Positions 24,383 through 45,032 of a stretch of 64,000 bases of DNA are shown here, one piece after another. The position numbers and the translations under genes were made by a program. The stretch is from contig NZ_CYPW01000002.1 of the NCBI RefSeq assembly GCF_001458175.1, forward strand, positions 1 to 64,000. Reading direction: 5' to 3'. The notes beneath the pieces were generated by a model. That model saw nothing but the letters and a program-made list of their open reading frames with translations. It was not told the DNA's origin and ran no database searches. This stretch comes from Shimia marina (GTDB lineage Bacteria; Pseudomonadota; Alphaproteobacteria; Rhodobacterales; Rhodobacteraceae). Every line of letters begins with the position of its first letter. Within the stretch, counting starts at the first letter, position 1.

Positions 24383-24386
24383 GACA

Positions 24387-28409: not shown

Positions 28410-29387
28410 ATGAGCACCGATCAAAAACCGATTTTTATCCATATCGGCACGCAAAAAACCGGCTCCACCTCCATTCAGGCCTTCCTTTGGGGTAAGCATA
28501 AAGAATTGCATGCCAATGGTGTGCACTATGTCAAAGCGGGTCGCAAACGCGCGGCCCACAATCACCTTGCAATTGTTGAGCGCAACGGTGATGTGGCCCC
28601 TCTGATGGACAACCTCGTGGCCGAAATCGAGGCGCACCCGGACCACACCCATGTCATTTCCTCTGAGATGTTCTTTCGCAGTTCTGTCTCCGAGATGTTG
28701 GCGCAGTACCTTCCAACTGAGATGAAGCATCGGGTGCGGCTGATCGCCTATCTCCGCCGTCAGGACAAATTTCTTGAGTCCATGTTCAAACAGGCGCTCA
28801 AAAACGGGCGCTTCCGGGGCACCCCTCAAGCCTATTGGGCCAAACGTGGCAATGCAGTGCGCTACAGTGAAGTACTCGATAGGTTTGCCAGCGACTTTGG
28901 CAAAGAGGCCTTGATCGTGCGCCCCTTTGAACGCGGTGCCTTTCCTGAGGGCGACATTGTCAAAGACTTTGCACAGCACATTGGCGTAGATGCCGACATG
29001 ACCAACATGCCAGATCAGGCCCCCTCCAATCTGACCCTCTCACATGAGGTTTCTCATCTTCTCGGCATGCTCAATCGCACCACCGATGTGAACACCCGTG
29101 TCTTGATCCGAGAAATTTCGCGGCACAACACACGCGGAGCGGTACGCTCCAGTGATTGTTATCTGCCCTCCGAGCGGCGCGAAATCATGCAAACCTGTGC
29201 CGATGACAACGCCTATGTGCACCAAACCTACTGCCCAGAATTGCCGCAGCTTTTTGACTTCAGCGATCTAGCCGATGACGTCGCCGACGTGCCTGCTACG
29301 GATGCCGAACGCCTGCAACACCTGCAGGAAGGGATCTATGCCGTGCTGCGCGCGATTGGAAAAACCCACAAGACCACGCCGCGCTGA
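28410..29387 (+). CDS. Sulfotransferase-family protein
   Basis: A 325-residue protein starting with a PAPS 5'-phosphosulfate loop, IHIGTQKTGSTSIQAFL (about 10-26). A 3'-phosphate-binding region around RLIAYLRRQDKFLES (107-121) follows. This is the layout of bacterial glycan or small-molecule sulfotransferases. It sits between the asparagine-synthetase-like gene and the ATP-grasp fusion, with gaps of 46 and 40 bases, so all three are probably one transcript. The acceptor is unknown. Confidence 0.8.
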   Translation: MSTDQKPIFIHIGTQKTGSTSIQAFLWGKHKELHANGVHYVKAGRKRAAHNHLAIVERNGDVAPLMDNLVAEIEAHPDHTHVISSEMFFRSSVSEMLAQYLPTEMKHRVRLIAYLRRQDKFLESMFKQALKNGRFRGTPQAYWAKRGNAVRYSEVLDRFASDFGKEALIVRPFERGAFPEGDIVKDFAQHIGVDADMTNMPDQAPSNLTLSHEVSHLLGMLNRTTDVNTRVLIREISRHNTRGAVRSSDCYLPSERREIMQTCADDNAYVHQTYCPELPQLFDFSDLADDVADVPATDAERLQHLQEGIYAVLRAIGKTHKTTPR

Positions 29388-29427
29388 CAACGCGCAAGCG
29401 ACCTTTGCCTGCAGATGGAGAAATCTG

Positions 29428-31890
29428 ATGGCCGATCAAACAACAGACACAACACTCGCCTTCCACTGCACCGTGGAAGGCAAGGTACAGGGTGTGGGAT
29501 ACCGCAACTGGGCGCGCAAAACCGCTCTGGCACTTGGTATTGGAGGCTGGGTACGCAACAGCTCCAACCATGTCGAATTGATGTACGCAGCCTCCGCCCA
29601 ACAGGCAGAGAACTTTGCTCTTGCGCTCGCGTCTGGCCCGCGTGGCGCGGAAGTGACGGCCGTTAACCCCCGCAGTGTCCGCCCACGCCGCTTTCGCACG
29701 TTCAAAATACTGGACAGCAAACACGCGCAGCCGCCTGTGGCCATGCCTCAGGCATCTGCACCGCTCGCAAAACCCACGCCGGATCTTCACTATGATCCGG
29801 CCTATCGCGCCTTGTGCCAAAAACTCTACGACGCGCTGCCATCGGACCTGAAAACCCACAATCGGGGGCAGTCCATTCCAAAAGATTGGGGCTTCAGTCA
29901 ATTTGAAACCGCCGCTGCAGATGCGGGCTGCGTCATCAGTCGCATCGACGCAGGCGCGCCCCGGCAATACCTGATGGAACACGCCACGGGCCGCCTTGGC
30001 ATGAGCAGCACCCGACTCAGCAAAGCCTCATATCTGGACACGCTGGTTGCCAATGACAAAACGCTGACCATGGCCGTTTTGCAGCAGGCAGGTCTGCCAA
30101 CCCCCCAGAGCCATGTGGCTGATAACATCGATACAGCCTTGGCCCGCCTCTCCACGGCCAAGGGACCGCTGGTGCTCAAACCCAGTCATGGCTCCAACTC
30201 CGAAGGTGTCACCACAAACGTGACCACCCAGCCCGCTCTGAACAGCGCGTTTTCTAAGGCGCAGGCTGCCGCACCGGATGGCCGTGTCGTTATCGAAGAC
30301 TATGTCCGTGGTGTGGATTTGCGCATGCTGCTGGCAGGAGACCATTTCGTCGTTGCCTACCTGCGCCTGCCAGCCAATGTAATTGGCAACGGCACAGATA
30401 CCATTGCGCAGCTGGTGGCCGCAAAGAACGCAGACCGCGCAACGTTGCCCGGTATCGGGGCAGAGAATCCGATACCTCAAAATAGACTGACAGACGATCT
30501 GCTCGCCGCACAGGACTTCACATATGAAAGCGTGCCGCCCAGTGGTCACTTCGTGCAACTTGGCCTGCGTCCCAACACCTCAGATGGGGCAGATCAGATC
30601 ACCGTCACCGACCTGCTGCACCCGACCATCAAAGAGGCCTGCGTAGACGCCACCAAAATCTTGGGGTCTGAAAGCCTCTGGGGATTTGACGTTCTTTCCG
30701 AAGATTATACGCAACCTGTGGGCACAACACGCACGGTGTTTTGTGAGGCCAACAACCGTCCTTTTGGCGGCGTATTCCGCCATGCCACGCACGGTGCCTA
30801 CGTGAACTTTTTTGAGCCTGTGATGGCCAAATTTTCTTCACAATCAACCGCACAGGCGTGGACAACTGCCCAATGGTATCTGCAGGTTTCCGGGCGTCTA
30901 TCCAACAGCGAAACAGACGCGCTCAAATCACTCAATTTGGCTGACGCCATGTTGCCTGATGGCACGGTACCATTGGGAGATATGACGCGCGATCAGGCCC
31001 TCAAGCTTTACTTCAAAGCCAGTCGACATCCCACATTGTTGGGGCGTTTGACCCTGCGCAATACCGCTGTTCTTGATGCTGTGGTTCCAAGCGAAGACAT
31101 CACCTGCCCTGCAGAACCATCTGCCCCGATTGAGGTGGAAGAAACACTCACCGAAGCCATTGCCCAAGCCTACAACCACACGCAGGGGACCGCCGCAGTT
31201 GCTTGGCGCGACAACGTGCTGGGCTTCCATCAAGACGACCAATTGACCCTTTGGGACACACAGGCCCCAACCAGCCTCGCCGCCTATCTGTTCCGCCCGG
31301 CCCGACAGATGTCACTGCGCACTGTTTTGGGCAGCGCGGGCCTGCCAATGACGGAATTACATGTCATCCCTTCAGCCAACGCGCTGCTGCAATTACAAAA
31401 TTCGCCGCCTGTGACCGGGCAATTGCATCTGTCACGTAAGTGGCACAAGCGTACCTTCGTTAAGGTGTCGTCAGATACAAACTTTGCAAGGCTTGCCACG
31501 CGCATCCCTGAAAATTGTTACCCACTGCGGCTCGATGCCTGGACCTCTGAGGATCACCTTAATGTGATCATGCTGGGCCAAACGCCAATTGCTGCTGGCC
31601 TGCACACCGCACAGGGTCTGCACAGTTTGCCAGAGGTCCCATCAACGCTGGCCCGATTATCTGCGCAAATCGCAACGGCCATTCCCGGCTTTGGCCGCGC
31701 GCGCCTGACGTTCCGACGATCCCAGAACGCCAGCTCACACTGGCGGTTACAAGCCATCAGCAGCGACTTATCCCATTCAGATTTTGCAGCACCTGCCTTG
31801 GGAACTGCCATCGACATTGCCGCACACATCGCAGCCTCCGTTACAGATGCAGGAAGCAAGCAGATTCACTTTGCCGCAGCCAAGATGTAA
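29428..31890 (+). CDS. Acylphosphatase-ATP-grasp fusion (cyanophycin synthetase-like ATP-grasp)
   Basis: An 820-residue fusion. Residues 10-95 are a complete acylphosphatase: VEGKVQGVGYR (16-26) with catalytic Arg26, and Asn44 in WVRN. Residues about 200-490 form an ATP-grasp of the cyanophycin/glutathione synthetase type, with VLKPSHGSNSEGV, VVIEDYVRGVDLRML and FCEANNRPFGG. The last 300 residues are poorly conserved. ATP-grasp enzymes ligate amino acids through acyl-phosphate intermediates, so a fused acylphosphatase is notable: it could hydrolyse stalled intermediates or serve only as a fold. GGAG precedes ATG 29428; the upstream frame overlaps the sulfotransferase gene. Confidence 0.8.
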   Translation: MADQTTDTTLAFHCTVEGKVQGVGYRNWARKTALALGIGGWVRNSSNHVELMYAASAQQAENFALALASGPRGAEVTAVNPRSVRPRRFRTFKILDSKHAQPPVAMPQASAPLAKPTPDLHYDPAYRALCQKLYDALPSDLKTHNRGQSIPKDWGFSQFETAAADAGCVISRIDAGAPRQYLMEHATGRLGMSSTRLSKASYLDTLVANDKTLTMAVLQQAGLPTPQSHVADNIDTALARLSTAKGPLVLKPSHGSNSEGVTTNVTTQPALNSAFSKAQAAAPDGRVVIEDYVRGVDLRMLLAGDHFVVAYLRLPANVIGNGTDTIAQLVAAKNADRATLPGIGAENPIPQNRLTDDLLAAQDFTYESVPPSGHFVQLGLRPNTSDGADQITVTDLLHPTIKEACVDATKILGSESLWGFDVLSEDYTQPVGTTRTVFCEANNRPFGGVFRHATHGAYVNFFEPVMAKFSSQSTAQAWTTAQWYLQVSGRLSNSETDALKSLNLADAMLPDGTVPLGDMTRDQALKLYFKASRHPTLLGRLTLRNTAVLDAVVPSEDITCPAEPSAPIEVEETLTEAIAQAYNHTQGTAAVAWRDNVLGFHQDDQLTLWDTQAPTSLAAYLFRPARQMSLRTVLGSAGLPMTELHVIPSANALLQLQNSPPVTGQLHLSRKWHKRTFVKVSSDTNFARLATRIPENCYPLRLDAWTSEDHLNVIMLGQTPIAAGLHTAQGLHSLPEVPSTLARLSAQIATAIPGFGRARLTFRRSQNASSHWRLQAISSDLSHSDFAAPALGTAIDIAAHIAASVTDAGSKQIHFAAAKM

Positions 31891-32009
31891 GCGCCGCTAA
31901 TCTCAATCTTTATAATTGTCGTGGTTTTGCACGTGCAGCGAGATAATTTTCAGAGTCCGTCAACTTCTTTTCCTTACTCGAATGAGCACTAAAGTGATGG
32001 AGTCGAACC

Positions 32010-34349
32010 TTGGACCAACGCGTATCTGCCGAAACCGCCGAAGATATTTTTGCCCTGATCAGGACAACCTCTTCTGAAGACGAAACCGGTCCAGTGGCAG
32101 AACTTCTGCGAAACGGGGATATCTCTGAGTTGATGATCTCTGTGGCCACAGGCGATTTTGACGCCATCAAAGACACCGCACGCGTCGGCAGCGGCGTCAA
32201 TTTTCAAGGCGCCTACGGCACCAGCCCCCTGCTCTTTGCCGCCGCGCTGGAACGCGCAGATGTGTTCAACTTCCTACTCGAAAATGGCGCGCGCATCGAC
32301 CTGAACATCGCCCCAGAAGCCTCTGCTGTCACATGGGCAGCGCGCTACGGTACAGTTGAGACCATGGCGATGGTGATCCGGGCGGCTTTACAAAAAGAAG
32401 AGCGCACCCATCAGATTTTCTTTCAAGCGCTTGAGGGCGCTGTACGCGCTGACAACCCAGCCCAGAAACTGGATCGTTTGGTCGGCTTTGGCTTCAATTT
32501 CGCCCTGCCCAACACGCAAAAACTGACGCCGATGCATGTTGCCGCACGTGCTGGCAATGTGGACGCGATCACCAAACTCGCAGCTTTTGGCCTAGATATC
32601 GAAGCCCCTGGCGACAGCGCCACTACGCCAATGCATCTGGCCGTCATGGCAGGACATATGCATGCGGTGGAGGCACTTTTGGCGGCAGGCGCAAACCTGG
32701 AAACACAGGATAGCCGCGGCGAGACACCGTTGTTTTACGTGTCGTCACGCGATGGCGGACAGATGTTTGATCATCTCGTGAAACTTGGCGCCAAAGCGGA
32801 CACGCGACGCAAAGACGGGGGCACCATCCTACACAAGGCCGCGGCATTGGGTGATGTCCGCCTCTTTGATCGTCTTATTGGCTTGGGCATCAGCCTTGAA
32901 GATCAAGACAATAAAGGCAACACGGCTCTGCACGCTGCCTCTGCCGCAAGTCAACTGGTCGCCATGCGTAAACTGCACGGCATGGGGGCCAATATTGAAG
33001 CACGCAACGGACGCGGTGAAACCCCAATCTTCCTCACCATCAATGCCGACAATCCAGCCGCCTTCCGCGCTCTGGAAAAACTGGGGGCCGATCTGGCCAA
33101 ACACCGCACCTACGGGGCCTCTTTGCTGCATGACGCCGCCCGCTGGGGCCGCATGGAGATTCTGCAAACCCTGCTGGAAAACGGCGGCAATGTGGATTGC
33201 GTCAATGATTTTGAAGAAACGCCCATGCATTTCGCGGCCAAATTCGGCCACACCGACGTGATCAAGAAATTGCATGAATTCGGAGCCAATCTGGAGAAAG
33301 AAAACAAACAAGGCGAAACCCCGATCAACTCCACCATGGAGGCTCTGGGGCGGAAATCCTTTGCCACGCTCTCCCAGCTTGGCGCCAATACCAAGACGCT
33401 CAACCGTTTTGGCGAAGGCCTGATCCATTCTTCTGCGCGTTGCTCCGATCTGGAAATCTTTGAGAAGGTGATTGAGGAAGGCGTGGATGTAAACGCAACC
33501 TCCGAAATTGGTGAAGGGGCTTTCCACTACGCGGCACGCTCTCCCATCGCCGCAAAGAAGTTCGAAATCCTCTCCCTGCTCGGCGCTGAAATCGAAGCCG
33601 AAGATGATCGCGGCCGTACCGCGATGCACTCCGCTTGCGAAGCCAAGAACATGCCCGGCATTCTCGCGCTTTATGACATGGGGCTCAGCCCCGAAGCCAA
33701 AGACCGCGCAGGCGTGACCCCACTGCATCTTGCTGCCGCATCCAGCCGGGCCGATGGCGCACAAAGCTTCAAGACACTTGTTAAAATGGGTGCCGAGGTC
33801 AATGAAATGGACAGCGCCGGGCTCACGCCATTGCATTATGCCGCCATGTCCGGACACGCCTCCCACATCCGTGCGCTTGTGAAACTGGGGGCAAAAATCA
33901 ACGCCACCGATCCAGACGGAAACACAGCGCTGCATCTTGCCGCCAAAGCGGAAAAGAAAGAGGCCATGGCAGAGCTTTGTGATCTCGGCGCAGACCGTGA
34001 TGCCCGCAACAAAGACAATCACAACGCGCTACATGTGGCTGCCATGGGCAAAACCCGCCGTATGGCCTGCATTGAAACCCTGCTCGCCAAGGGCTGTGAC
34101 ATCAACTGGCGCACCGGACTGGGCGAGACCGTCGCGCATCTCATCGCTGAAGATGGTGATCTGAAACCGGTTGTTTTGATCCGCCACATGGAAGAACTGG
34201 CCGATTTGGGCGTTGATTTCTTCTTTCGCAACCGCAAGGGGCTCGGCGCACTCCAGATTGCGCAGGAACATCTGGAAAGCCACGGCGCAGAATGGGAGCG
34301 CAAAAAGATTGCACAGCTGCGCAAAAAACGGGGACGCAACAGCAAGTAA
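32010..34349 (+). CDS. Large ankyrin-repeat protein
   Basis: A 779-residue protein made almost entirely of ankyrin repeats, with at least 15 recognisable units (TPMHVAARAGN, TPLHLAAASSR, TALHLAAKAEK and many more) and no signal peptide or membrane helix. The C-terminus is short and very basic. It would act as a cytoplasmic binding scaffold. The frame opens right after a stop; TTG 32010, with GGAG seven bases upstream, is the only good start. It lies between the ATP-grasp gene (119-base gap) and the RiPP precursor, from which a hairpin at 34379 separates it. A link to either cluster is inference. Confidence 0.85.
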   Translation: MDQRVSAETAEDIFALIRTTSSEDETGPVAELLRNGDISELMISVATGDFDAIKDTARVGSGVNFQGAYGTSPLLFAAALERADVFNFLLENGARIDLNIAPEASAVTWAARYGTVETMAMVIRAALQKEERTHQIFFQALEGAVRADNPAQKLDRLVGFGFNFALPNTQKLTPMHVAARAGNVDAITKLAAFGLDIEAPGDSATTPMHLAVMAGHMHAVEALLAAGANLETQDSRGETPLFYVSSRDGGQMFDHLVKLGAKADTRRKDGGTILHKAAALGDVRLFDRLIGLGISLEDQDNKGNTALHAASAASQLVAMRKLHGMGANIEARNGRGETPIFLTINADNPAAFRALEKLGADLAKHRTYGASLLHDAARWGRMEILQTLLENGGNVDCVNDFEETPMHFAAKFGHTDVIKKLHEFGANLEKENKQGETPINSTMEALGRKSFATLSQLGANTKTLNRFGEGLIHSSARCSDLEIFEKVIEEGVDVNATSEIGEGAFHYAARSPIAAKKFEILSLLGAEIEAEDDRGRTAMHSACEAKNMPGILALYDMGLSPEAKDRAGVTPLHLAAASSRADGAQSFKTLVKMGAEVNEMDSAGLTPLHYAAMSGHASHIRALVKLGAKINATDPDGNTALHLAAKAEKKEAMAELCDLGADRDARNKDNHNALHVAAMGKTRRMACIETLLAKGCDINWRTGLGETVAHLIAEDGDLKPVVLIRHMEELADLGVDFFFRNRKGLGALQIAQEHLESHGAEWERKKIAQLRKKRGRNSK

Positions 34350-34761
34350 CCCGCTCACAAAATCTGCATATGACAGACAGGGCGTCACGATCGTGGCGCC
34401 CTGATTTGTACCAGCTCCCAGCAAACGAAAGCTGAATTCCCCAAAAACTCACGAACCACTCACGCTGAGTGACCTTGCGTTAACTTTTTCTTACGCTTGT
34501 ATTTCGAGCCGAACTTAGAACGACAAAACCACGCTCAAGTGTCTGTTTTTATAAGTAATAACCCAGCCCCAACCAAACATACCGGTCACCTTAGAAACAC
34601 TGGAAATCGCCCAAATGAACGCCCAAGAGATAAATCCTAGGGCAATTCATACTTCTGACCCACGCGTGATTCGCCTATCTTGGACGACATTGAAACGCAC
34701 AGCTCCCACGCAATTTCTTTCGGGAGCGCAGTTACAAAAATTAAAAATTTAAGGAGCTGAG
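34350..34761 (+). promoter_or_regulatory. Terminator and 5' leader before the RiPP precursor
   Basis: The gap begins with AGGGCGTCACGA (34379-34390) followed directly by its near-perfect complement TCGTGGCGCCCT (34391-34402), a likely terminator of the ankyrin gene. Just before the precursor is a hairpin GCTCCC (34702-34707) / GGGAGC (34722-34727), then an A-rich stretch and a strong ribosome-binding sequence AAGGAGCTGAG ending at 34761. AGCTCC (34701-34706) is also complementary to GGAGCT of the ribosome-binding site (34753-34758). The leader could therefore hide or expose the start site. The promoter should lie in 34403-34690, but I see no strong consensus. Confidence 0.5.
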
Positions 34762-36660
34762 ATGGCTAAGAAACCAGCCTCAGGACCGTCGGAGGAGTCT
34801 GCGGACGCCACCGACGGCACCGATCGCAATACGACCGCCGCATCGCCCCCTCCGGAGATACAGCTTACTTGGGCGAAAATCATTTCAAACGCCGCGCAGG
34901 ATCCTGACTATGCTCAACGCGCTTTTGCGGATTTGGCCACTGCCTTTGCCGAATGTGGCGTGGCGGAGCTTGCTGACCTCGATCCGGAGCAGGACCTCGT
35001 GCCTGCCCTCTCGGACGCGCAACGCATGGTGAGCGGCGCTTTGAGCCTCAAAGCACAGGAACAGGCCGCCTCGGGCCTGCCCCCACAGGGCTACACACAA
35101 GGCTACAGCTGGGCGTGTTTTGCCTCCGCCCCACCTGCGCCGGATGCCCCCCCTGCCGAGACACCGGACACCGATAATTCTGACCAAAGCAATTCTGAAG
35201 GAGGAGAGACTGTGAACATGGATACATCAGCAACAAATGCCCCCATGATGGGCGGCTGCGTCGGCACATTCGGCACAGCTGGATCGCTCGGCACCGTGGG
35301 AGGCACCGCAGGCTCTGCTGCCACTGTCGGCTCTTATGGCAGCGCTGGCATGGTAGATCCTGAACGGCCCGCCGCTTCGCTTGTGACCCACCCCACCATG
35401 GCCACCAGTTTCTCTCAGGCAAGCAAACCCACGGTCGGAACAATACGCCCCACAGAAGCCTGCGTCATGAGCCAAGCTTGCGCGCCAACCCAACCCTGCG
35501 TGCCTACGCAACCGACACAGCCCACAGTGGCCACAATCAAAACGCAGCCCACGGTCGCCTCGATCAAGACGCAACCCACCATGGCCTCGATCAAACCCAC
35601 AACCGGTTCCATCCTGAGCCAACCGGCTCCGGTCTCATCCACACGCCTCTCAGGCGCAAGCTACGCGGATCCCATGATGGGCGGGTGCTGGGGCAGCGCA
35701 GGCACAATCGGCAGCGCAGGCACATTTGGCGGCTGTGCCGGGACAGTGGGCACTGGTGGCTGTTACGGCTGTGCCGGAGGAGATGAGGCCAAGTTGACAC
35801 CGATGGACCCCTGCATGGCGTCACTCATGACCCAGCAAACCATCGCCTCCATCAAACCAACGGTTTTGACACAGCCCCCGCGTCTGACTCAACCGGCCAC
35901 TGAACTCACGCAGGCCACCATCAAACCCACGGTCGCCAGCCTCAAAACGGTCGGTTCCGTCCTCAGCCAGCCTGCGCCGCTCTCCGCCGACCCGATGGCC
36001 GGTGGCTGCAACGGCACCTTTGGCACAGTCGGGTGTCTGGGCTCTGTTGGCGGCACCGCAGGCAGCGCAGGCACGGTGGGCACCTACGGCTCCGCCGGCA
36101 TTGTGAATGAGCTACAACCCTTGGAGCGCAGCAAAATCGCTACGCTGACGCCCTGCGTCAGCCCCTGTCAGATGACGCAACAGACCACGGCCACCATACA
36201 TGGCAGCTTTGCCAAAGCACCTATGGCGGATCTGCGGTCCACCCGGCTCTCTGGCGCCTCAATGGGCTCCTTTGCCACCTATTGTGGTTGTGTCGCTGAT
36301 GGCGCAGCAGCACAGGATCCCATGATGGGCGGATGCTGGGGCAGCGCAGGCACAATCGGCAGCGCAGGTTCCTTCGGCGGATGTGCTGGCACCGTTGGCA
36401 CCGCCGCATGTTACGGCAGCGCCGGTGACAGCGTGGTTATGGAAACCGCAACCCTGCGCAACCCAACCCTCACACCTGTGATGCCAAAGGCCTCCCTTTC
36501 CACACTGCGTCCCCGTCAAATGACCCCATTGCGTGGCGAATTTGAAGACTATGGCAGCTATTGGGATTTCGAAGGCATGGCCGCCAGCTATGGATGTATG
36601 GCTTCGGCCTGCGCCGCCTCCATGGCTCAGCCTCTAAGCGGTGAATTCTACGACGACTGA
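34762..36660 (+). CDS. Giant multi-core TOMM-type RiPP precursor with NHLP-like leader
   Basis: A 632-residue precursor. Residues 33-70 resemble the alpha subunit of nitrile hydratase as used in NHLP leaders (LTWAKIISNAAQDPDY onward). Four 36-residue cores follow at residues 161-196, 304-339, 411-446 and 520-555. Each begins PM(M/A)GGC and holds two blocks of five Gly-(C/S/T)-X triplets split by one Gly, with ten Cys/Ser/Thr at core positions 6, 9, 12, 15, 18, 22, 25, 28, 31 and 34; Ala replaces Gly in a few triplets. Cores 1 and 3 resemble each other, as do 2 and 4. Spacers contain nine-residue repeats (TQPTVASIK type, three in tandem at 252-278) and a repeated STRLSGAS. A heterocyclisation cassette follows at once. 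TOMM precursors are usually under about 100 residues. Confidence 0.85.
   Translation: MAKKPASGPSEESADATDGTDRNTTAASPPPEIQLTWAKIISNAAQDPDYAQRAFADLATAFAECGVAELADLDPEQDLVPALSDAQRMVSGALSLKAQEQAASGLPPQGYTQGYSWACFASAPPAPDAPPAETPDTDNSDQSNSEGGETVNMDTSATNAPMMGGCVGTFGTAGSLGTVGGTAGSAATVGSYGSAGMVDPERPAASLVTHPTMATSFSQASKPTVGTIRPTEACVMSQACAPTQPCVPTQPTQPTVATIKTQPTVASIKTQPTMASIKPTTGSILSQPAPVSSTRLSGASYADPMMGGCWGSAGTIGSAGTFGGCAGTVGTGGCYGCAGGDEAKLTPMDPCMASLMTQQTIASIKPTVLTQPPRLTQPATELTQATIKPTVASLKTVGSVLSQPAPLSADPMAGGCNGTFGTVGCLGSVGGTAGSAGTVGTYGSAGIVNELQPLERSKIATLTPCVSPCQMTQQTTATIHGSFAKAPMADLRSTRLSGASMGSFATYCGCVADGAAAQDPMMGGCWGSAGTIGSAGSFGGCAGTVGTAACYGSAGDSVVMETATLRNPTLTPVMPKASLSTLRPRQMTPLRGEFEDYGSYWDFEGMAASYGCMASACAASMAQPLSGEFYDD
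35198..35220 (+). promoter_or_regulatory. Internal ribosome-binding site within the precursor gene
   Basis: AAGGAGGAGAG (35198-35208) is a near-perfect Shine-Dalgarno sequence placed seven bases before an in-frame GTG (35212, codon 151) and 13 before ATG (35218, codon 153). Translation from here would give a leaderless protein containing all four cores. The codons also simply encode Glu-Gly-Gly-Glu, so the match could be chance. Confidence 0.4.
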
Positions 36661-36777
36661 CACTCCTGGCAGGCGGTCCCCCATACCGCCATAGCCCCCG
36701 CATCGCCCGCCTGTCCCGCGGGCGATGCACCCTATGATTTCAAGCCAATGCCATTTGAATATTCGACGAGGTCTCCC

Positions 36778-39024
36778 ATGCTGTTTCGCCCTATCTTAAA
36801 GGAAAACTATCAAGCCTATGCTGTCTATGGCGAAGGCCATGTACTTCTGTCCGATGCGGAGAGCTTCGCGTTGGAAGGGCATATTCTCAGCCAGCTCTTG
36901 CCGCTGCTGAATGGCGAAAACAGCCGCGATGACATCGTCGCTCTACTCAGTGCCATCGCCAGCGCCGAAGAGGTCTATGCGGCGCTGGATTATCTCACAC
37001 AAGCAGGTCACCTTCGCGAGGCCGATCCAGATGCCACAGCAGATGAGGCGCTCTTCTGGTCTTCCTTGGGGATCAACAGTCAGGCTGCCCGCGCCCAGCT
37101 TGCGCAATGCCCTGTCACCGTTCTGGCACCAAATGCGCAGGAACAGGCCACGGCACTGGCGTGGGCGCAATCTGCTGGTCTAAGTATTGATCAGGAAAAC
37201 GGCCGTATCAAACTGGTGATCGTCGAAGACTATCTGGACGAAAACCTGCGCGCTCTGAATGCCGAACTGACAGCATCGGGTGATCCCTGGCTGCTGGTGC
37301 GCCCATGGGGTCTGACCCCGCTGGTCGGACCGCTGTTCATTCCCGGCACCACAGGATGCTGGGAATGCCTGGAAACCCGCCTGCTGGAAAACCGCGATGT
37401 TGAAATCATGCTTGCCGGGCGTATGGCCATAAAAGGCGCGCCTCCGCGCCCTGTTGTGCAATCTGATGCCTTTTATGCGCAGGCACTCGCCACCGCGACA
37501 ACACAGCTCATGCGTTACATCGTGGCAGGAGCCAACCCCGAGGTTACAGGTGTGATCAACCAATTGATGCCCCTTACGTTGGAACGCAAACAACACAGCC
37601 TGCTGCACCGTCCCCAATGCGCCTGTTGCGGCGATCCCCAAAAGGGGCTGATTGGTGGCGCACCCAAGGATTTTGAGGTCCGCCAATCCGCGCAGGGCGT
37701 CGAAAACGGCGAGCGCACCATGACCGCAGCAGAAACCTACGCGCGATATGCCGCGCACGTCAGCCCGCTGACCGGCGTCATAAAGGATCTGACGCCCTCT
37801 CCCTACAACGGTGTCACCCCTCTGCGCACCTACTCGGCAGGAAATAATCTTGCGGTCAAACCAGCGGGCCTCTGGGGGCTTAAGCAAAACCTGCGCTCTG
37901 TATCTTCTGGCAAGGGCCGCACCGATACACAGGCCCGCACCTCTGCCCTCTGTGAGGCGCTTGAGCGCTATTCCGGCAAGTTCCGCGGCGAAGAAATCCG
38001 CATTCCGGCATCACTGGGCATGCTGGGTGACAGCGCGCTGCATCCCAATGAACTGATGCTTTATTCCGATCAGCAATACGCCGATCGCGAGGCATGGAAC
38101 GCGCGCGGCAGCCAGTTTCAGATCGTGCCTGAAAATCAAACCCATGATGAGATCGTGGAATGGACACCGGTCTGGTCAATCACCCAAAAGCGGATGAAAT
38201 ACCTCCCCACCTCCATGCTGTTCTATTCTTACCCAGCACCGGACAACCGCTTCACCTCTTGGGCAGACAGCAACGGTGCCGCCGCGGGCTCCAGCTATGA
38301 AGACGCCTGCCTGCAAGGTCTCATGGAGTTGGTGGAACGCGACTCTGTGGCCATCTGGTGGTACAATCGCCTCGCCATGCCCGAGGTGGACCTCACGGGG
38401 CTGGATGATGCGTTCGTCGCCGAAAACCGCGCCTTTTATGCACAGCATAAGCGTGAGTTCCACGTGCTCGACATAACAACCGATCTGGGCATCCCGTCTT
38501 TTGTGGCCATCAATCGCCGCACCGGCGGCCCGACAGAAGACATCGTCATGGGCTTTGGCGCCCATCTGGATGCGCGCGTGGGCATCATGCGGGCCATCAC
38601 CGAGATGAACCAGTTTATGCCGGCGGTGCTTTCGGTCGGTGTTGACGGCCGCACTCACTACGCCTTTGACGATCCCGACAGCCTCAACTGGTGGCAAACC
38701 GCCACCTATGACAACCAGCCCTACCTTGTGCCTGAAGGGCCTGCGCGCAAGCTGGCCGATTATGCCCCTTTGCCAGACGGCGACATCACCCACACACTGC
38801 GCACGGCCATCCAGCGTGTGGAAGAGGCCGGGCATGAAGTACTGGTGATTGATCAGACCCGCGCCGACATTGGCCTTCCCGTGGTGCGGGTCTTTGCACC
38901 GGGCCTGCGCCACTTCTGGGCCCGCTATGCACCGGGGCGGCTATACGATGTGCCGGTCAAAATGGGGCGTCTGGATGCGCCGCTGCGCGAAGACCAGCTC
39001 AACCCAATTGCCATGTTCCTCTGA
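36778..39024 (+). CDS. TOMM cyclodehydratase, fused E1-like (C) and YcaO (D) protein
   Basis: A 748-residue fusion that should convert Cys/Ser/Thr to thiazolines and oxazolines. Residues 1-90 form a leader-binding winged-helix-like region. Residues to about 290 are the ThiF/E1-like C domain with zinc cysteines CWEC (194-197) and CACC (281-284). The YcaO domain has SSGKGRTDTQAR (376-387) and ALCEALERYS (390-399) for ATP and Mg binding, and ELVERDSVAIWW further on. It ends NPIAMFL rather than the PxPxP tail typical of TOMM YcaO proteins. ATG 36778 has GAGG upstream; ATG 36748 does not. The precursor lies 117 bases upstream. Confidence 0.93.
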   Translation: MLFRPILKENYQAYAVYGEGHVLLSDAESFALEGHILSQLLPLLNGENSRDDIVALLSAIASAEEVYAALDYLTQAGHLREADPDATADEALFWSSLGINSQAARAQLAQCPVTVLAPNAQEQATALAWAQSAGLSIDQENGRIKLVIVEDYLDENLRALNAELTASGDPWLLVRPWGLTPLVGPLFIPGTTGCWECLETRLLENRDVEIMLAGRMAIKGAPPRPVVQSDAFYAQALATATTQLMRYIVAGANPEVTGVINQLMPLTLERKQHSLLHRPQCACCGDPQKGLIGGAPKDFEVRQSAQGVENGERTMTAAETYARYAAHVSPLTGVIKDLTPSPYNGVTPLRTYSAGNNLAVKPAGLWGLKQNLRSVSSGKGRTDTQARTSALCEALERYSGKFRGEEIRIPASLGMLGDSALHPNELMLYSDQQYADREAWNARGSQFQIVPENQTHDEIVEWTPVWSITQKRMKYLPTSMLFYSYPAPDNRFTSWADSNGAAAGSSYEDACLQGLMELVERDSVAIWWYNRLAMPEVDLTGLDDAFVAENRAFYAQHKREFHVLDITTDLGIPSFVAINRRTGGPTEDIVMGFGAHLDARVGIMRAITEMNQFMPAVLSVGVDGRTHYAFDDPDSLNWWQTATYDNQPYLVPEGPARKLADYAPLPDGDITHTLRTAIQRVEEAGHEVLVIDQTRADIGLPVVRVFAPGLRHFWARYAPGRLYDVPVKMGRLDAPLREDQLNPIAMFL

Positions 39025-39035
39025 GGAGAGCCACC

Positions 39036-40445
39036 ATGATGCATGTCTGGATTGACCCCGGTCACGACACCGAAAAAGCGGCCCTGCTCGAAGCCGCACT
39101 GGCGCCGCTGCGTGTGCACGCCCCAAACACATGCGCACAGCTCCTAGAGTGCCTAGACACGTCCAACGGAACCAGCATAGCGGATCTGCAGGCCATCACC
39201 GCCACAGCAATGGACGGCGGAGAAACCATGGCATCGGATGTGTTGCTCAGTCTGTTGCAAAGCCTTGGTGCAATTGGCGCTCTGCGCTTTGGCTCCGCCG
39301 ACAGGACAGAGGCCGTGCTCACCCTATGGCCCATGCAGCCTGACCTTCTGCCCACGATGGATCTGGCGATTGAGGAAACTCTCACCTACCGTCTGTCACG
39401 CTTTGCAACCCTGCGGCGCGAAGGGAGTCGCTTGATCATCGAACGACCGCTCTCCGGCTATCGTGCCGCAATCCGCACCGATACAGTGACAGGGGCCAAA
39501 CTGATTGCCCTGTTCACCGAAGGCACCACCGTCGCTGGACTGGCCCAAGGGCGCATCCCAACCGCCCAGCGCGCGCCAATCTGTGCCATGCTGGCACAGG
39601 CTGGCATCATTGCACCGCAAGATGAAAACGGCCTCCTGCCCGAAGACAAAGATGACACCCTGCGCCAGTGGCAGCCGCAGGATCTGGCCTTTCACGCCCA
39701 TTCCCGCATGGGGTTTGCCAATGATCCCATCGGCGCGACTTTCTCTTTCAAAGACGAAATCTACGCACAGCCCGCGCTGCATCCGGAACCTGACAACCTC
39801 GGCAGAGTGCCGCTCCTTGCGCCAGAGCTGAACATGCTTGCCGCGACGGATATCTCGCTGACGCAGGCCATGGAGCGCCGCAGTTCCCGCCGCCCGCAAC
39901 TGCGACGCGCACTCACTCTGGCAGAGCTGGGCATCTTCCTGTTTCGCACCGCCCGCATCCGCTCCCATTTTGAAACCGATATCGGCAGTTTCACCTCCCG
40001 CCCCTATCCGTCCGGTGGGGGGGCTTATGAATCTGAAATCTACATCACCGCACAAAACATCGCTGGGCTGCGTCCCGGCTTTTACTACTATGCCGCAGCC
40101 ACACATGAGCTGCTGCTCCTGCGAGAATGGGATGACGATTGCGCAAGCCTCGCACAAGACGCGCTCACCGCAATGGCCATGACATCTGCCCCCGATGCTG
40201 TGCTCACCTTCGGCAGCCGGTTTCAACGCATGCAGTGGAAATACGCGGGCATGGCCTATGCCACGCAACTCAAGACCACAGGAGCCGCCTATATGGCCTT
40301 CTATCTCGCGGCCACCGCGATGGGTCTTTCCCCCTGCGGCCTTGGGCTGGGCAATGCCGCCACCTTCGCCCGCCTGACAGGGCAAGATCCCCATTTTGAA
40401 GGCTCCATTGGCGAGTTCGCCTTATCCGGTCCAGGAGACGCCTGA
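39036..40445 (+). CDS. SagB-type FMN dehydrogenase for azoline oxidation
   Basis: A 469-residue protein whose C-terminal half is a nitroreductase-fold SagB/ThcOx domain: RRSSRRPQLRRALTLAELG, RPYPSGGGAYESEIYI, and KYAGMAYATQLKTTGAAY in the FMN-binding region. The N-terminal 240 residues are an extra, weakly conserved docking-like part, common in longer SagB proteins. It would oxidise azolines to azoles with FMN. GAGGAG precedes ATG 39036, only 11 bases after the cyclodehydratase stop, and the gene's stop overlaps the peptidase start by one base. Confidence 0.92.
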   Translation: MMHVWIDPGHDTEKAALLEAALAPLRVHAPNTCAQLLECLDTSNGTSIADLQAITATAMDGGETMASDVLLSLLQSLGAIGALRFGSADRTEAVLTLWPMQPDLLPTMDLAIEETLTYRLSRFATLRREGSRLIIERPLSGYRAAIRTDTVTGAKLIALFTEGTTVAGLAQGRIPTAQRAPICAMLAQAGIIAPQDENGLLPEDKDDTLRQWQPQDLAFHAHSRMGFANDPIGATFSFKDEIYAQPALHPEPDNLGRVPLLAPELNMLAATDISLTQAMERRSSRRPQLRRALTLAELGIFLFRTARIRSHFETDIGSFTSRPYPSGGGAYESEIYITAQNIAGLRPGFYYYAAATHELLLLREWDDDCASLAQDALTAMAMTSAPDAVLTFGSRFQRMQWKYAGMAYATQLKTTGAAYMAFYLAATAMGLSPCGLGLGNAATFARLTGQDPHFEGSIGEFALSGPGDA

Positions 40446-42079
40446 TGCCAAACACCCCAAACAGCCCCTCTTATGCTCTGTTTGCTTTGCGCAATCAGAC
40501 GGTTGAAATCTCCTCCGGTGATCTCAGCGCCATTGCCCTGCAATTGCGCGATGTGTTGCGCGACTACTATGTCCATCTGCCGCAAAAAACCGCCTCCATG
40601 GCCATCAACCCTCTGCGCGAGCTTGAGCTTCTCGCAGATGATGCGGCGGCTTATCCATCCACTGCGGCCTATTTGCAGCGGCTGGCCCGTATTTTCCTGA
40701 AACTGCGGGATCGCCACACCTCCATCCGTCTGCCCGCCCCTTGGAACGCTATGATCGCCTATCTGCCCTTTGTCGCAGAAAGCTGCTACGAGGCCGGACG
40801 GCGCAAGCTGATCGTGACAAAACTGGTGGAGGCGCCAGACGATCCGCATTTCACCGTCGGGGTAGAACTCACCCATTGGAACGGCACCCCGATTCAGCGG
40901 TTTGTCGAAACCCTGTCTTGGCAAACCAATGGCTCCAACCCTTGGGCACGGATCGCATTGGCGCTGCGCGCACTCACCCTGCGCCCTCTGGCTTTTGCGC
41001 CCCCACCAGACGAAGATTGGGTCACGCTGACCTATGTGGACGCCACCGGCGCCCAGCGACAGGCCACATTTCTGTGGCAGGTGACATTCAAACCAGATGC
41101 AACCGCGGGCGCTGGCACCCGTGAGAGCGGGAATGTGCCCCTTTTGGGATTGGATGAGGGAACCGAAGTGGTCAACCAGACCCTGAAATCCCTGTTCTGT
41201 GATCCCGGGCAAAACCGACTGCGCGGCCTTGGCCTGACCGTAACCGGCTCTGGCATGCGTTTTGATGAACTGCAGGGCGCAACCGGTGCCGCCCCCGGCG
41301 TGCGCTCCTCTGTGATGACCCTGCCCGATGGGAAGAGCTTTGGCCTTCTGCGGATTTTTTCATTTGGCGCCCGCAACATACGCGGCTTTGTCGAAGAGAT
41401 CGCCGCCCTGCTTATGCAAATGCCACAAACCGGGCTGATTGTGGATGTGCGCGCCAATCCGGGTGGCACCATCCCCGCAGGAGAAGCCCTCCTGCGCCTG
41501 CTCACCCCAAACCCCGTAGACTTCAGCCGGAATGCCTTTCTCGCCACCCCCGCCACACGCCGTCTCAGCAGTGGCGCCGCCTTCTTTCAACGCTGGCAGC
41601 GATCGCTGGATATGGTGCTGGAAACAGGTGCCACCTTTTCGCAGGGCTTTCCGCTGGTAGAAGATAGCCATTGGCAGGGGCTGGAGGGCACCTACAAAGG
41701 GCCGGTGGTGTTGATCACCGATGCCTTGAGTTATTCCACAACAGACTATTTTGCGGCGGGCTTTGAAGACAACAAGATCGGCAAAATCATAGGCTTGGAT
41801 CCCACCACTGGCGCAGGTGGGGCCAATGTCTGGAACCTTGGACAGATCTCACGCTTTTCTCAGGAAGGCGGTGCCGCCCCCCTGCCCCCAATGCCAGCAG
41901 GCATAGAAGCCAACATCGCTGTGCGCCGCGCCCTGCGTGTGGGGCCAAACCATGGCCTGCCCCTCGAAGGTCTGGGGGCCAGCCCTGATATCCTACACCA
42001 CACCACGCGGCGTGACGTGGTCGCCGGCAATCAGGATCTCCTGCTGCGCGCCGCCGATGTGCTTCAAGGCGCGATCTGA
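40445..42079 (+). CDS. S41-family (CtpA/tricorn core-like) peptidase
   Basis: A 544-residue serine peptidase with the S41 core: LIVDVRANPGGTIPAGEALL and VLITDALSYSTTDYFAAGFEDN (the catalytic Ser region), plus HTSIRLP early on as in tricorn-type core domains. No signal peptide is visible, so it should be cytoplasmic, unlike CtpA. Its start overlaps the dehydrogenase stop (TGATG), making it the third gene of the maturation operon. Removing the leader and cutting the spacers between the four cores is the obvious inferred job, and no other peptidase is present in the cluster. Confidence 0.88.
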   Translation: MPNTPNSPSYALFALRNQTVEISSGDLSAIALQLRDVLRDYYVHLPQKTASMAINPLRELELLADDAAAYPSTAAYLQRLARIFLKLRDRHTSIRLPAPWNAMIAYLPFVAESCYEAGRRKLIVTKLVEAPDDPHFTVGVELTHWNGTPIQRFVETLSWQTNGSNPWARIALALRALTLRPLAFAPPPDEDWVTLTYVDATGAQRQATFLWQVTFKPDATAGAGTRESGNVPLLGLDEGTEVVNQTLKSLFCDPGQNRLRGLGLTVTGSGMRFDELQGATGAAPGVRSSVMTLPDGKSFGLLRIFSFGARNIRGFVEEIAALLMQMPQTGLIVDVRANPGGTIPAGEALLRLLTPNPVDFSRNAFLATPATRRLSSGAAFFQRWQRSLDMVLETGATFSQGFPLVEDSHWQGLEGTYKGPVVLITDALSYSTTDYFAAGFEDNKIGKIIGLDPTTGAGGANVWNLGQISRFSQEGGAAPLPPMPAGIEANIAVRRALRVGPNHGLPLEGLGASPDILHHTTRRDVVAGNQDLLLRAADVLQGAI

Positions 42080-42151
42080 GCCTCCCGCAGATTGAACGCA
42101 AAGGCGGTTGCCTCTATCACAAGAGCCAACCGTCATTTGAAGGAGAGCGCC

Positions 42152-42838
42152 ATGCCGGACTATGTCGTGCCCCCCGCCGCCCCCGTTGCCCTGCCTGTTG
42201 TGGGGAGTGACGCCCTTTTTGCGGTGCGGCGCGTCTATTGTATCGGGCGCAACTACGCAGATCACGCCCGTGAAATGGGGCATGATCCAGACCGCGAACC
42301 GCCCTTTTTCTTTCAGAAAAACCCTAACAATCTCTCGCCCACACCCACGTTCCCCTACCCTTCTCAAAGCAGTGATGTGCATCACGAGGCAGAAATGGCC
42401 ATTGCGCTGCATTCTGGCGGCAGCAATATTTCGACCGAGAACGCGCTGTCACATGTGTATGGCTATGCCGCCGCGCTCGACATGACACGCCGCGACCTGC
42501 AAGCCACCGCCAAGGCGCAGGGCCGCCCGTGGGAAATTGGCAAAGCATTTGAGCACTCCGCCCCCATTGGCCCCATTCATCCTGTCGTGAAGACCGGCCA
42601 TCTCAACACAGGCCCCATCCGCCTTTTGCTCAACGACACCATCAAGCAGGAGGGCAATCTCAATCAGATGATCTGGAAAGTGCCCGAAATGATCGCCTTT
42701 CTCTCTACGTACTTCACATTGGCAGCAGGCGATGTGATTTTGTCGGGCACCCCTGCGGGCGTCGGCCCCGTGATCAGGGGGGATGTCATGACCCTTTCGA
42801 TAGCGGAGCTCGCACCTCTCACCGTGACCGTCACCTGA
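42152..42838 (+). CDS. Fumarylacetoacetate hydrolase-family protein
   Basis: A 228-residue FAH-fold enzyme with the opening CIGRNYADHAREMG, metal-binding acids in HHEAEMAIAL and the catalytic-end SGTPAGVGPV. Length and sequence are closest to fumarylpyruvate hydrolases and acylpyruvases, which cleave C-C bonds of beta-diketo acids. AGGAGAG precedes ATG 42152, 72 bases after the S41 peptidase. Although on the same strand, it looks like a catabolic or housekeeping gene rather than part of the RiPP cluster. Confidence 0.9.
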   Translation: MPDYVVPPAAPVALPVVGSDALFAVRRVYCIGRNYADHAREMGHDPDREPPFFFQKNPNNLSPTPTFPYPSQSSDVHHEAEMAIALHSGGSNISTENALSHVYGYAAALDMTRRDLQATAKAQGRPWEIGKAFEHSAPIGPIHPVVKTGHLNTGPIRLLLNDTIKQEGNLNQMIWKVPEMIAFLSTYFTLAAGDVILSGTPAGVGPVIRGDVMTLSIAELAPLTVTVT

Positions 42839-42969
42839 CCCGCAGCTCCTGCTGAAAAACTGCGCACCCGCTCTCCCAACCCCAATTGAAACACTCGCAG
42901 TCGTTGCGCGTCGCGCGACCGGTGCTAGGCTCCGCAGAAGACCACGCGCGCCACGACCGAGAGACCACC

Positions 42970-43809
42970 ATGATTATCAATCGCACTGCCAGCCAAACGG
43001 ACCTTGTGCAGATTCTGAACTGGGCCAGAGACGAAGGCTGGAACCCCGGCCTGCAAGACGCTGAGGCCTTTTGGCAGGCCGACCCTGAAGGTTTCTTTGT
43101 CGCCACCGATGGTACTGAGCTTCTGGCGGCAATTTCCGTCGTAAACCACTCTGCCGATTTTGCCTTTCTTGGCCTCTACATCACCCAGCCCTCCCATCGG
43201 GGTCAGGGCGTGGGATACGCCCTGTGGCAACACGCGCTTCAACATGCCGGATCGCGCACCATTGGCCTTGATGGTGTGCCAGATCAACAAGCCAACTATG
43301 CAGCCTCCGGGTTTGACCTCTTCAGTGCGACCACACGGTTCACCGGTTCCATTCCCGCCACGCGTCACCCCCAGATCCGTATGGCCACCGCACGGGATCA
43401 ACCTGCCCTGATCGCGATGGAAGCCGCGACCTCCGGCACAGCGAAGCCCGCCTATCTGAACGCCTGGTTCACAGAGGCCGACAGCCGCAAAACCCTGATC
43501 CTGTCAGAGCGCGGCACCATCACCGGCTGTTGTACCGTGCGCCAATGCGCATCCGGAGCAAAAATCGGCCCGCTTCTGGCGCAGTCAGCCGATGATGCCC
43601 GCAGCCTGCTATCCCACGCGGCCAGCCTGTTTGGTACCGAGATGACGCTGGATGTGCCCGACACCTCCGCTGCGCTCAAAGCGCTTTGCACAACGCTGGG
43701 TCTCACGCCCGGCTTTGCGACGGCGCGCATGTATCGCGGCCCTGCCCCCCGTGTGTACAAGGATACCTCAAGTCCATTTTTCGCGGTCACCTCTTTGGAG
43801 TTGGGCTAA
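42970..43809 (+). CDS. Tandem GNAT acetyltransferase
   Basis: A 279-residue protein with a clear N-terminal GNAT domain (acetyl-CoA loop YITQPSHRGQGVGYALW, about 65-82) and a second, more divergent GNAT-like half ending VYKDTSSPFF, similar to YitH/HolE-type DUF1248 proteins. The substrate is unknown. ATG 42970 has a poor ribosome-binding site; upstream codons are basic and unlikely. It is on the same strand as the RiPP operon but separated from it by the FAH gene, so self-protection by acetylation is only a thought. Confidence 0.82.
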   Translation: MIINRTASQTDLVQILNWARDEGWNPGLQDAEAFWQADPEGFFVATDGTELLAAISVVNHSADFAFLGLYITQPSHRGQGVGYALWQHALQHAGSRTIGLDGVPDQQANYAASGFDLFSATTRFTGSIPATRHPQIRMATARDQPALIAMEAATSGTAKPAYLNAWFTEADSRKTLILSERGTITGCCTVRQCASGAKIGPLLAQSADDARSLLSHAASLFGTEMTLDVPDTSAALKALCTTLGLTPGFATARMYRGPAPRVYKDTSSPFFAVTSLELG

Positions 43810-43953
43810 GCTCTGCTGGGAGGCTGATCTGGTCACAAACAATGCTCCTGAGCCCCCAAGCAAGATCACTTTCTCAGAAAAGCCAAACGAGCAGTGCGTA
43901 CACTGCGACCGGCATCAATCCCCAGAAAGCTTGCAGACAAAGGAGCCGCAGTC

Positions 43954-44847
43954 TTACTTGTCACAGCTCGGCTCATGTGTCAGCCAATCATAGACCAGCT
44001 TTGCACGGTCGGTGGCGTTTGGGTGTAACTTGACATAGAAATCGACCGGTGACGCCACCGTTTCAGGCAGGATCTTGATCAGCTTGCCGGTATCTATGAA
44101 CATCTTTGTCAAACCGTGCCATCCCAGAACTGCGCCCATATCATCCTGTGCAGCTTGAAGTGCAATCACATAGTTATTGACACGAAGACTGTTTCGCAAA
44201 GGCCCCAGATAGCCCTGTGCCTTGCACCAGCCGTGCCAGTCGGTCCAGGTGCTTTTGTCTGCATCCAAATGAATAAGCGGAACTTTCCCAAGATCTGAAA
44301 TCTGTTCGATTTTGTGAAGCTGTGCAAAACGCGGACTGGCGAGCGCCATTATGTGGTCATGAAACAGCGCATGACAGGTACCGGTCTCATTCGACATATC
44401 GCCATAGTGAATACTCAGATCACAGTCTGACCCGGCCTGATCAGTGTCGCTCACAATTTGGGACACGGAAATATGTCCATGTATTTTCCAGAACTGCGCC
44501 AGACGCGGCGTAAGCCACAAAGAACTGACCGCAGTTGTTGCGCGGATGGTGACGGAGGTCTTTGTAGAGCGCGCTCTGAGTTGATTCAGAGCGTCATTCA
44601 TACATTCAAATCCACGCTGAAGAGACACCAACAAGTAGGCCCCGGTCTCTGTCAGTTCAACTCCCCGATGGTGACGCCGGAACAATGCGCTTTGCAGCTC
44701 CTGTTCCAGAGATTTGACCTGATGGCTGATGGCTGCAGGAGTCACGTTTAACTCGCGTGCAGCGGCTTTAAAACTGACATGCCTGGCCGCAGCTTCAAAG
44801 CTAATCAGAGAACTCATCGGCGGAAGATCATATGGACGTTTAAGCAA
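43954..44847 (-). CDS. LysR-family regulator, GcvA-like
   Basis: A 297-residue LysR regulator. The helix-turn-helix is SFKAAARELNVTPAAISHQVK (about 25-45, in one run with the linker) and GcvA/AmpR-type features include the RRHHRGVELTETG turn. It is divergent from the MttB-like gene across 185 bases, so control of the methylamine-type operon at 45033-48682 is the natural inference. A shorter start at Met11 is possible. Confidence 0.9.
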   Translation of the reverse strand: MLKRPYDLPPMSSLISFEAAARHVSFKAAARELNVTPAAISHQVKSLEQELQSALFRRHHRGVELTETGAYLLVSLQRGFECMNDALNQLRARSTKTSVTIRATTAVSSLWLTPRLAQFWKIHGHISVSQIVSDTDQAGSDCDLSIHYGDMSNETGTCHALFHDHIMALASPRFAQLHKIEQISDLGKVPLIHLDADKSTWTDWHGWCKAQGYLGPLRNSLRVNNYVIALQAAQDDMGAVLGWHGLTKMFIDTGKLIKILPETVASPVDFYVKLHPNATDRAKLVYDWLTHEPSCDK

Positions 44848-45032
44848 ATCAACCTCATCTATAGAATCATTTCAGCCTTACAAATTTAGCTCATTCATCG
44901 ATTAGGATTAATTCAGATAATCCAAGGTGAAATTAAATGCAATTGCCAGAACACGTCAAATGCCCAGAGTGAAGAGTATCGGCAGACCATGGGCCAGGGC
45001 TTGCTACTCGGCCTCATCAAAAGGAAAATCCC

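Follow-up and report, generated by a model that had tools for sequence, protein, structure and literature searches.

A putative protein-length, four-core precursor of azole-containing peptides in Shimia marina

A 64,000-nucleotide stretch of Shimia marina DNA (contig NZ_CYPW01000002.1, positions 1 to 64,000; hereafter the window) encodes a 632-residue protein whose sequence and neighbours point to a linear azol(in)e-containing peptide (LAP)/thiazole/oxazole-modified microcin (TOMM) cassette with a protein-length, four-core precursor, a reading to which we give a probability of about 0.78. An earlier note on this DNA had proposed a multi-core precursor of TOMM type, and the proposal gains from gene context: the open reading frame (ORF) adjoins its own cyclodehydratase and dehydrogenase genes. 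Three parts by which a TOMM/LAP cluster is recognised are present, namely a cyclodehydratase with leader-binding/C and YcaO parts, a SagB-type flavin mononucleotide (FMN) dehydrogenase and an adjoining precursor rich in Gly, Cys, Ser and Thr. SagB-type dehydrogenases belong to many TOMM/LAP clusters, not all.

Results

The four 36-residue cores lie in frame exactly where the earlier note had placed them. Each carries Cys, Ser or Thr (C/S/T) at positions 6, 9, 12, 15, 18, 22, 25, 28, 31 and 34 and nowhere else, so that all 40 sites are filled as had been claimed, and Gly recurs at about every third residue. The residue before the C/S/T is Gly at 38 of the 40 sites and Ala at the other 2, in line with the preference first noticed. 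When residues were shuffled within the cores (20,000 trials), at most 28 of the 40 positions were filled (mean 16.5), and shuffling of the whole protein gave even one stretch with ten of ten sites in just 2 of 2,000 trials. Because they differ by 17–40% in DNA (60–70% identity between cores, 83% between cores 2 and 4), the cores are not recent tandem copies. A plus-strand promoter scan upstream of the precursor gave no candidate.

Precursors of this kind occur in five other genomes. Scanning genome contigs for the cyclodehydratase returned five loci, in Shimia sp. R9_2, a Pseudorhodobacter metagenome-assembled genome, Roseovarius atlanticus, Aestuariibacter sp. AA17 and a Streptomyces (L002 to L006, in this order), the first four of which carry such a precursor; a further cassette (L033, in genome G247) came from searching 390 genomes of the order. 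The same four genes stand in the same order in all six loci with such a precursor, and since Shimia is an alphaproteobacterium and Aestuariibacter a gammaproteobacterium, the cassette spans two classes of Pseudomonadota. Precursor length is 643 residues in the second Shimia, 590 in Pseudorhodobacter, about 584 in Roseovarius, 327 in Aestuariibacter and 365 in G247, and the number of Gly-rich cores is exactly four in all six. Across these 24 cores C/S/T fill 240 of 240 sites (43 Cys, 96 Ser, 101 Thr); at the other positions of core residues 5–34 they occur 12 times in 480, all 12 in Aestuariibacter and G247. Gly precedes 207 of the 240 sites, Ala 20, Asp 8, Ser 3 and Phe 2.

These cores had been picked by a ten-of-ten rule (30 matching stretches, 6 linker stretches with fewer than six Gly being excluded), and near misses were sought for that reason. 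The Gly-rich near-miss search yielded no fifth or imperfect core; partial matches (6–8 of 10) appeared in a few neighbouring stretches, and what was found were shifted overlaps and edges of the same four cores. When 14 of the 24 cores served as seeds, the resulting profile gave exactly four matches per genome in the six genomes, all within the precursor, recovered all 8 unseeded cores of Shimia and Roseovarius, and had no match in 247 other genomes of the family. Conserved cores lacking a YcaO neighbour, which the earlier note had named as the observation that would count against it, were thus sought in 253 genomes (248 plus 5), and no core was found outside the cassette precursor.

Substitutions within the cores follow the same pattern. 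Between the window and the second Shimia, 7 of the 40 core C/S/T sites changed residue, all within C/S/T, and two of the seven changes are Cys to Thr, which needs at least two base changes; of the other core positions compared, 4 of 103 changed (P161, M162, V179 and G333), with one codon gapped. Between Pseudorhodobacter and Roseovarius, 7 of 44 C/S/T in core stretches changed and none left the class. Core C/S/T sites are therefore more changeable than the other core positions and yet keep to ring-forming residues, as one would expect if selection acted on the class rather than on the side chain, and the earlier claim that Cys, Ser and Thr replace only one another at fixed positions holds in both pairs. 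In four genomes cores 1 and 3 are of one type (V) and cores 2 and 4 of another (W), whereas in Aestuariibacter and in G247 a single V-like and a single W-like core are joined by two cores of a third type, in an order that differs between the two genomes. The types in the six genomes suggest distinct products and not mere copies.

The extent of modification within the cores is a separate matter. A subset of the sites, for example Cys, might be cyclised, with the triplets serving recognition or spacing; this overlaps with the four-core reading and differs from it in extent. In its favour are the share of Cys (43 of the 240 sites), the generally slower cyclisation of Thr and Ser in LAPs, and the residue before position 6, which is Asp in 8 of the 24 cores and Ser in 3. 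The exchange of Cys, Ser and Thr at the same site between relatives speaks against it, as a Cys-only rule would not allow this, and we hold the restricted version to be unlikely, though by no means far-fetched.

The cassette enzymes fit a four-core azole precursor (Table 1). The cyclodehydratase, which may instead start at an ATG 39 bases downstream, matches TIGR03604 (2e-79, 267 bits, cut-off 219), TIGR03882 (2e-34, 119 bits, cut-off 37) and Pfam YcaO (1e-91), and the gene is the only YcaO gene in the genome of the window. Its nearest solved relatives by sequence are LynD (1e-158) and TruD (9e-156). The dehydrogenase matches TIGR03605 (9e-41, 139 bits, cut-off 78) and the oxidase family that Pfam names ThcOx (7e-15), its nearest solved relative being CyaGox (9e-57). 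The S41 peptidase matches NF033424 at 2e-20 but with 73 bits against a cut-off of 250, and the solved chlamydial protease CPAF (CT_858) weakly (2e-5). Its candidate active-site residues H91, S431 and E508 (window numbering) are invariant in the six homologues; the His and the Ser align with CPAF residues and the Glu sits near the C terminus, the three kinds of residue being those that we take to form the CPAF active site.

Table 1 Features of the cassette in the window (positions in window numbering)
Feature	Position	Strand	Basis
Precursor, 632 residues, four cores	34762..36660	+	Cores found in frame; homologues in 5 other genomes adjoin the same three genes
Leader domain, residues 31-103, predicted helices, weakly NHLP-like	34852..35070	+	AlphaFold; NF038399
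Core 1 (V type)	35242..35349	+	
Linker 1, residues 197-303, C/S/T mostly every third residue	35350..35670	+	Spacing counts vs shuffles
STRLSG motif preceding core 2, may serve processing or recognition	35638..35655	+	ST[RP]L recurrence
Core 2 (W type)	35671..35778	+	
Linker 2, residues 340-410, C/S/T period 3	35779..35991	+	Spacing counts vs shuffles
Core 3 (V type)	35992..36099	+	
Linker 3, residues 447-519, weak periodicity	36100..36318	+	Spacing 3 in 6/18, p 0.04
STRLSG motif before core 4	36238..36255	+	ST[RP]L recurrence
Core 4 (W type)	36319..36426	+	
Perfect 11-bp hairpin in the gap before the enzyme genes, may set precursor excess	36700..36728	+	Folding z -5.35
Fused TOMM cyclodehydratase (predicted): winged-helix (RRE-like), leader-binding/C and YcaO (D) parts	36748..39024	+	TIGR03604, TIGR03882, Pfam YcaO
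SagB/ThcOx-type FMN dehydrogenase (azoline to azole, predicted)	39036..40445	+	TIGR03605, ThcOx, CyaGox
S41 peptidase, distantly CPAF-like	40445..42079	+	Pfam S41 8e-15

AlphaFold, run on an alignment of five sequences only, placed low-confidence helices at leader residues 31–46, 48–64, 69–72 and 83–103 (mean predicted local distance difference test score for the model 35.6) and predicted no fold for the remainder of the chain, which suits a substrate. Towards the NHLP leaders the resemblance is slight. The NHLP-clan model NF038399 scored 14.8 bits (E 0.023) on the window leader and matched 4 of the 6 leaders at 12.9–16.5 bits, all below its cut-off of 40 bits, and a profile comparison with the NHLP-type leader of a Thalassospira precursor gave a probability of 11% and E 0.0027 over 45 columns.

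As an alternative, the protein could be a Gly-rich structural one of collagen-like or solenoid form, left unmodified and lying beside a TOMM cassette by chance. Gly at about every third core residue would suit such a protein, as would a match to the HxsA4 repeat family at 31 bits, itself under the cut-off of 55. Set against these are the adjacency of precursor and cassette in 6 of 6 loci from two classes, the confinement of the cores to the cassette precursor in the 253 genomes searched, the lack of any solved chain related to the precursor at E up to 1, the absence of a predicted fold in the cores, and the Cys-to-Thr exchange at conserved sites. Cassette conservation, the core search and the AlphaFold result thus disfavour this explanation, and we find it scarcely credible.

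Regular spacing is not confined to the cores. The 40 core sites of the earlier note are exact, but they are not the only regularly spaced C/S/T, since linkers 1 and 2 are periodic as well. Neighbouring C/S/T in linker 1 are exactly three residues apart in 24 of 33 cases (shuffle mean 4.9, reached in 0 of 2,000 shuffles), and in linker 2 in 11 of 17 (shuffle mean 2.5, 0 of 2,000 as high). A 27-bp tandem repeat at 35518–35595 accounts for part of the linker 1 array, which leaves fewer independent sites there. The tail (residues 556–632; 3 of 15, p 0.32) is not periodic. In relatives, spacing 3 in linker 1 was counted in 36 of 46 cases for Shimia, 13 of 32 for Pseudorhodobacter and 14 of 32 for Roseovarius; linkers 2 and 3 are non-periodic in Aestuariibacter, where linkers are short, and in G247. 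The residue before C/S/T is seldom Gly in either periodic linker, the commonest being Pro (11 of 34) and Ala (9 of 34) in linker 1 and Leu (6 of 18) and Ala (5 of 18) in linker 2; over all 87 C/S/T of the window's linkers and tail, Ala precedes 24, Pro 17, Leu 13 and Gly 8. All six precursors have the short element ST[RP]L between cores, in two or three copies each.

The linker arrays raise the question of whether the precursor is cut between its cores at all. If it stayed uncut, cores and periodic linkers would be modified as one long polyazole and the S41 peptidase would trim the leader only. The period-3 C/S/T of linkers 1 and 2, those of linker 1 in the second Shimia, and the retention of four cores in one chain in all six homologues would agree with this. 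Yet linker 1 ranges from 28 residues in Aestuariibacter through 107 in the window to 144 in the second Shimia, and the linkers evolve fast (dN 0.37), unlike a functional part; Gly precedes only the 8 of 87 linker and tail C/S/T noted above, and linker 3 and the tail are weakly or not periodic. On balance an uncut chain seems quite improbable. A related and tentative proposal, which we also regard as rather unlikely, is that both cores and periodic linkers are cyclodehydratase substrates, so that the single gene would encode a polyazole the size of a protein, its rings numbering far above 40 and mostly following a period of 3 from residue 161 to residue 410. The Gly-type blocks (the four cores) and the Pro/Ala-type blocks (the linkers) would then either belong to a single polymer or be separated by the S41 peptidase into two product families. 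The linkers gave no clear sign of being selected as azole substrates, C/S/T conservation there barely exceeding that of Ala, Gly and Pro (A/G/P).

Several observations weigh against the four-core LAP/TOMM reading or temper the evidence for it. Among the 240 sites, 13 follow Asp, Ser or Phe, neither Gly nor Ala. Between the window and the second Shimia, nonsynonymous and synonymous rates (dN/dS) were 0.060/0.92 for the cores, 0.10/1.30 for YcaO, 0.21/1.19 for the dehydrogenase, 0.22/1.14 for the peptidase, 0.37/1.57 for the linkers and 0.40/1.42 for the leader, so that the cores have the lowest ratio of those compared; at 0.065 it lies just slightly below the 0.079 of YcaO, and it comes from 143 codons with dS near saturation. 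Linker C/S/T keep their class in 88% of cases against 84% for A/G/P in the same pair, and in 85% against 81% between Pseudorhodobacter and Roseovarius; with conservation so little above that of A/G/P, the linkers may not be substrates. A proline-rich tail is known from other TOMM YcaO proteins, whereas the YcaO part here ends in NPIAMFL. No signal peptide was evident by reading the S41 peptidase sequence, to which a role is assigned from its position and co-occurrence. The gap between precursor and cyclodehydratase gene folds better than its shuffles in 6 of 6 cassettes (z -5.35 in the window, -2.1 to -3.8 in the other five), with differing sequences; this measure carries no control on other gaps, and the two weakest gaps are modest, 7 and 4 of 200 shuffles folding equally well. 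Finally, the neighbouring genes that were scanned, a part of all those at the loci, include none recognisable as a transporter or immunity gene. The AlphaFold result, from so few sequences, is to be read with the same caution.

Distribution and genomic surroundings

The cassette is rare. The cyclodehydratase was matched at 1e-60 or better in 7 of the 390 genomes of the order, and a multi-core precursor accompanied it in two, the genome of the window (G000) and G247. Searches with the precursor itself returned one genome of 198 in the family and one of 385 in the class, both times the window's own, and may miss the G247 type (1e-9 with alignment). Among 295 genomes of the order to which Aestuariibacter belongs, only its own had the cyclodehydratase at 1e-120. 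No multi-core precursor was found at the Streptomyces locus (cyclodehydratase 38% identity), or by a composition scan of 17 wider YcaO loci at 36–43% identity, a scan that can overlook short precursors and overlooked that of Thalassospira. The 17 comprise 7 of 21 matching plasmid records, five order genomes besides G247, for which 12–16 kb stretches were also scanned, and five class genomes, scanned 1.5 kb upstream. We rejected a mobile or phage origin: the precursor had no match in plasmid or phage records, and no viral contig carried the six peptide patterns of the cyclodehydratase.

Several other loci are of separate interest. Ahead of the G247 cassette stand a DyP-like, a P450 and a GST-like gene (L033, 458–4331), whose products may be tailoring enzymes. 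On a plasmid of Methylovirgula sp. HY1 (L019, 5281–5754), a 157-residue protein ending in Gly-Cys-Gly-His/Arg repeats adjoins a TOMM cyclodehydratase and a SagB-type dehydrogenase and may be another azole precursor. A Thalassospira marina plasmid (L014, 1941–12724) holds adjoining genes for a LanM synthetase, a 105-residue precursor with an NHLP-like leader, a TOMM cyclodehydratase, a P450 and an S53 peptidase, a possible hybrid lanthipeptide-azole cluster.

Around the cassette of the window, an 871-residue fusion of acylphosphatase and ATP-grasp (cyanophycin-synthetase-like) domains is encoded upstream at 29275–31890; of 25 genomes in the genus, 4 have a match at 1e-60, the window's own among them, and no match at 1e-5 was seen in the cassette stretches of Shimia, Pseudorhodobacter, Roseovarius, Aestuariibacter and G247. 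Upstream of the precursor, at 32010–34349, lies the gene for a 779-residue ankyrin-repeat protein that is 81% identical to a protein in the same place in the second Shimia and has no match in the stretches of the other four cassette loci; a link with the cassette is possible. DNA identity to the second Shimia is 74.5% for the cassette enzymes but 92.3% for a molybdopterin dehydrogenase stretch (24001–26286), which in that genome flanks the cassette on the opposite side. This indicates that the cassette moved or evolved apart from its surroundings.

Discussion

Cyanobactin pathways are the closest by enzymes: LynD, TruD and CyaGox, which we take to be cyanobactin enzymes, stand for the fused cyclodehydratase and the ThcOx-type oxidase whose solved relatives lie nearest. 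Cyanobactin precursors are about 100 residues long (PMC4603692) and hold one to four cores each, and active clusters are described as always encoding subtilisin-like A and G proteases and as yielding macrocycles (PMC4663559). The S. marina cassette differs in having an S41 peptidase, 36-residue cores and precursors of 327–643 residues, and no subtilase was detected (Pfam, E 0.001) in the ten proteins at 28410–46607 or in ten further ORFs at 17279–48679. Where cyanobactins have short recognition sequences flanking the cores, there are ST[RP]L elements between cores, in a putative role.

Heterocycloanthracin resembles the cores in the period-3 spacing of heterocyclisable residues within a Gly-rich stretch: its thirteen Cys are separated by two residues in ten intervals and by three in the other two (PMC2674419). 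Unlike the adjoining gene here, that precursor is encoded far from the enzymes in B. anthracis and B. cereus, and ocin-ThiF (TIGR03693) is not among the NCBIfam matches listed for the ten proteins at 28410–46607 (for the second protein, 25 of 50). NHLP and NHLP-Burk TOMMs share the weak leader resemblance; it stays below cut-off, and some NHLP-Burk precursors have several cleavage sites or a fusion suggesting two products (PMC4603692), compared with four cores here. The thiocillin-family model NF033482 from the ribosomally synthesized and post-translationally modified peptides (RiPPs) matches the window cores at 51.5 bits (cut-off 25), the 105-residue Thalassospira precursor at 26.7, and the Aestuariibacter (14.4) and G247 (12.8) precursors below that cut-off. 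This 48-position model matches Gly-C/S/T-X stretches, and no thiopeptide-forming gene was seen among the ten window proteins scanned. The microviridin precursor AMdnA has several cores in one chain and one processing enzyme (PMC5934393), with an ATP-grasp ligase and macrolactones instead of azoles.

A TOMM survey took precursors under 150 residues as a search assumption and not as a chemical definition (PMC4603692). At 632 residues in the window and 327–643 across the six genomes, all six precursors would be excluded by that limit. The earlier note had put forward a protein-sized, multi-core polyazole precursor as new to its author. Its length stands without a precedent that we found, and no title among those returned by searches of open-access papers describes a protein-length multi-core LAP precursor; multi-core TOMMs are already known from cyanobactins (PMC4663559), so the claim must be narrowed. 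What has no precedent found in these open-access searches is the combination of a 327–643-residue precursor, ten-site 36-residue cores, periodic linkers and an S41 peptidase, a family not named in the portion drawn on here of a review of RiPP leader proteases (PMC10885120).

We infer the ring chemistry, its extent, the cleavage and the products as follows. The hairpin before the cyclodehydratase gene would let the precursor be made in excess of the enzymes; RiPP operons often use hairpin-like elements in this way, and in Aestuariibacter a U run stands behind the stem. The winged-helix/C part of the fused cyclodehydratase would bind the N-terminal leader, and its YcaO part, using ATP, would convert the C/S/T of every Gly-C/S/T-X triplet to an azoline, some or all of which the SagB/ThcOx-type enzyme would oxidise to azoles. 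Each core could thus carry up to ten heterocycles with a single X residue between them, or two residues at the Gly-Gly of positions 20–21. The S41 peptidase may then cleave the linkers, perhaps close to the ST[RP]L elements, to release two kinds of polyazole peptide, the V type from cores 1 and 3 and the W type from cores 2 and 4. By analogy with other LAPs, our guess is that the product would be a secreted antibacterial or signalling peptide.

If this reading is true, enzymes that form azoles work on substrates as long as a protein and carrying dozens of sites. The six cassettes would then be natural systems in which to study how one cyclodehydratase and one leader reach cores about 400 residues away, whether modification runs in a fixed direction, and what the S41 peptidase contributes.

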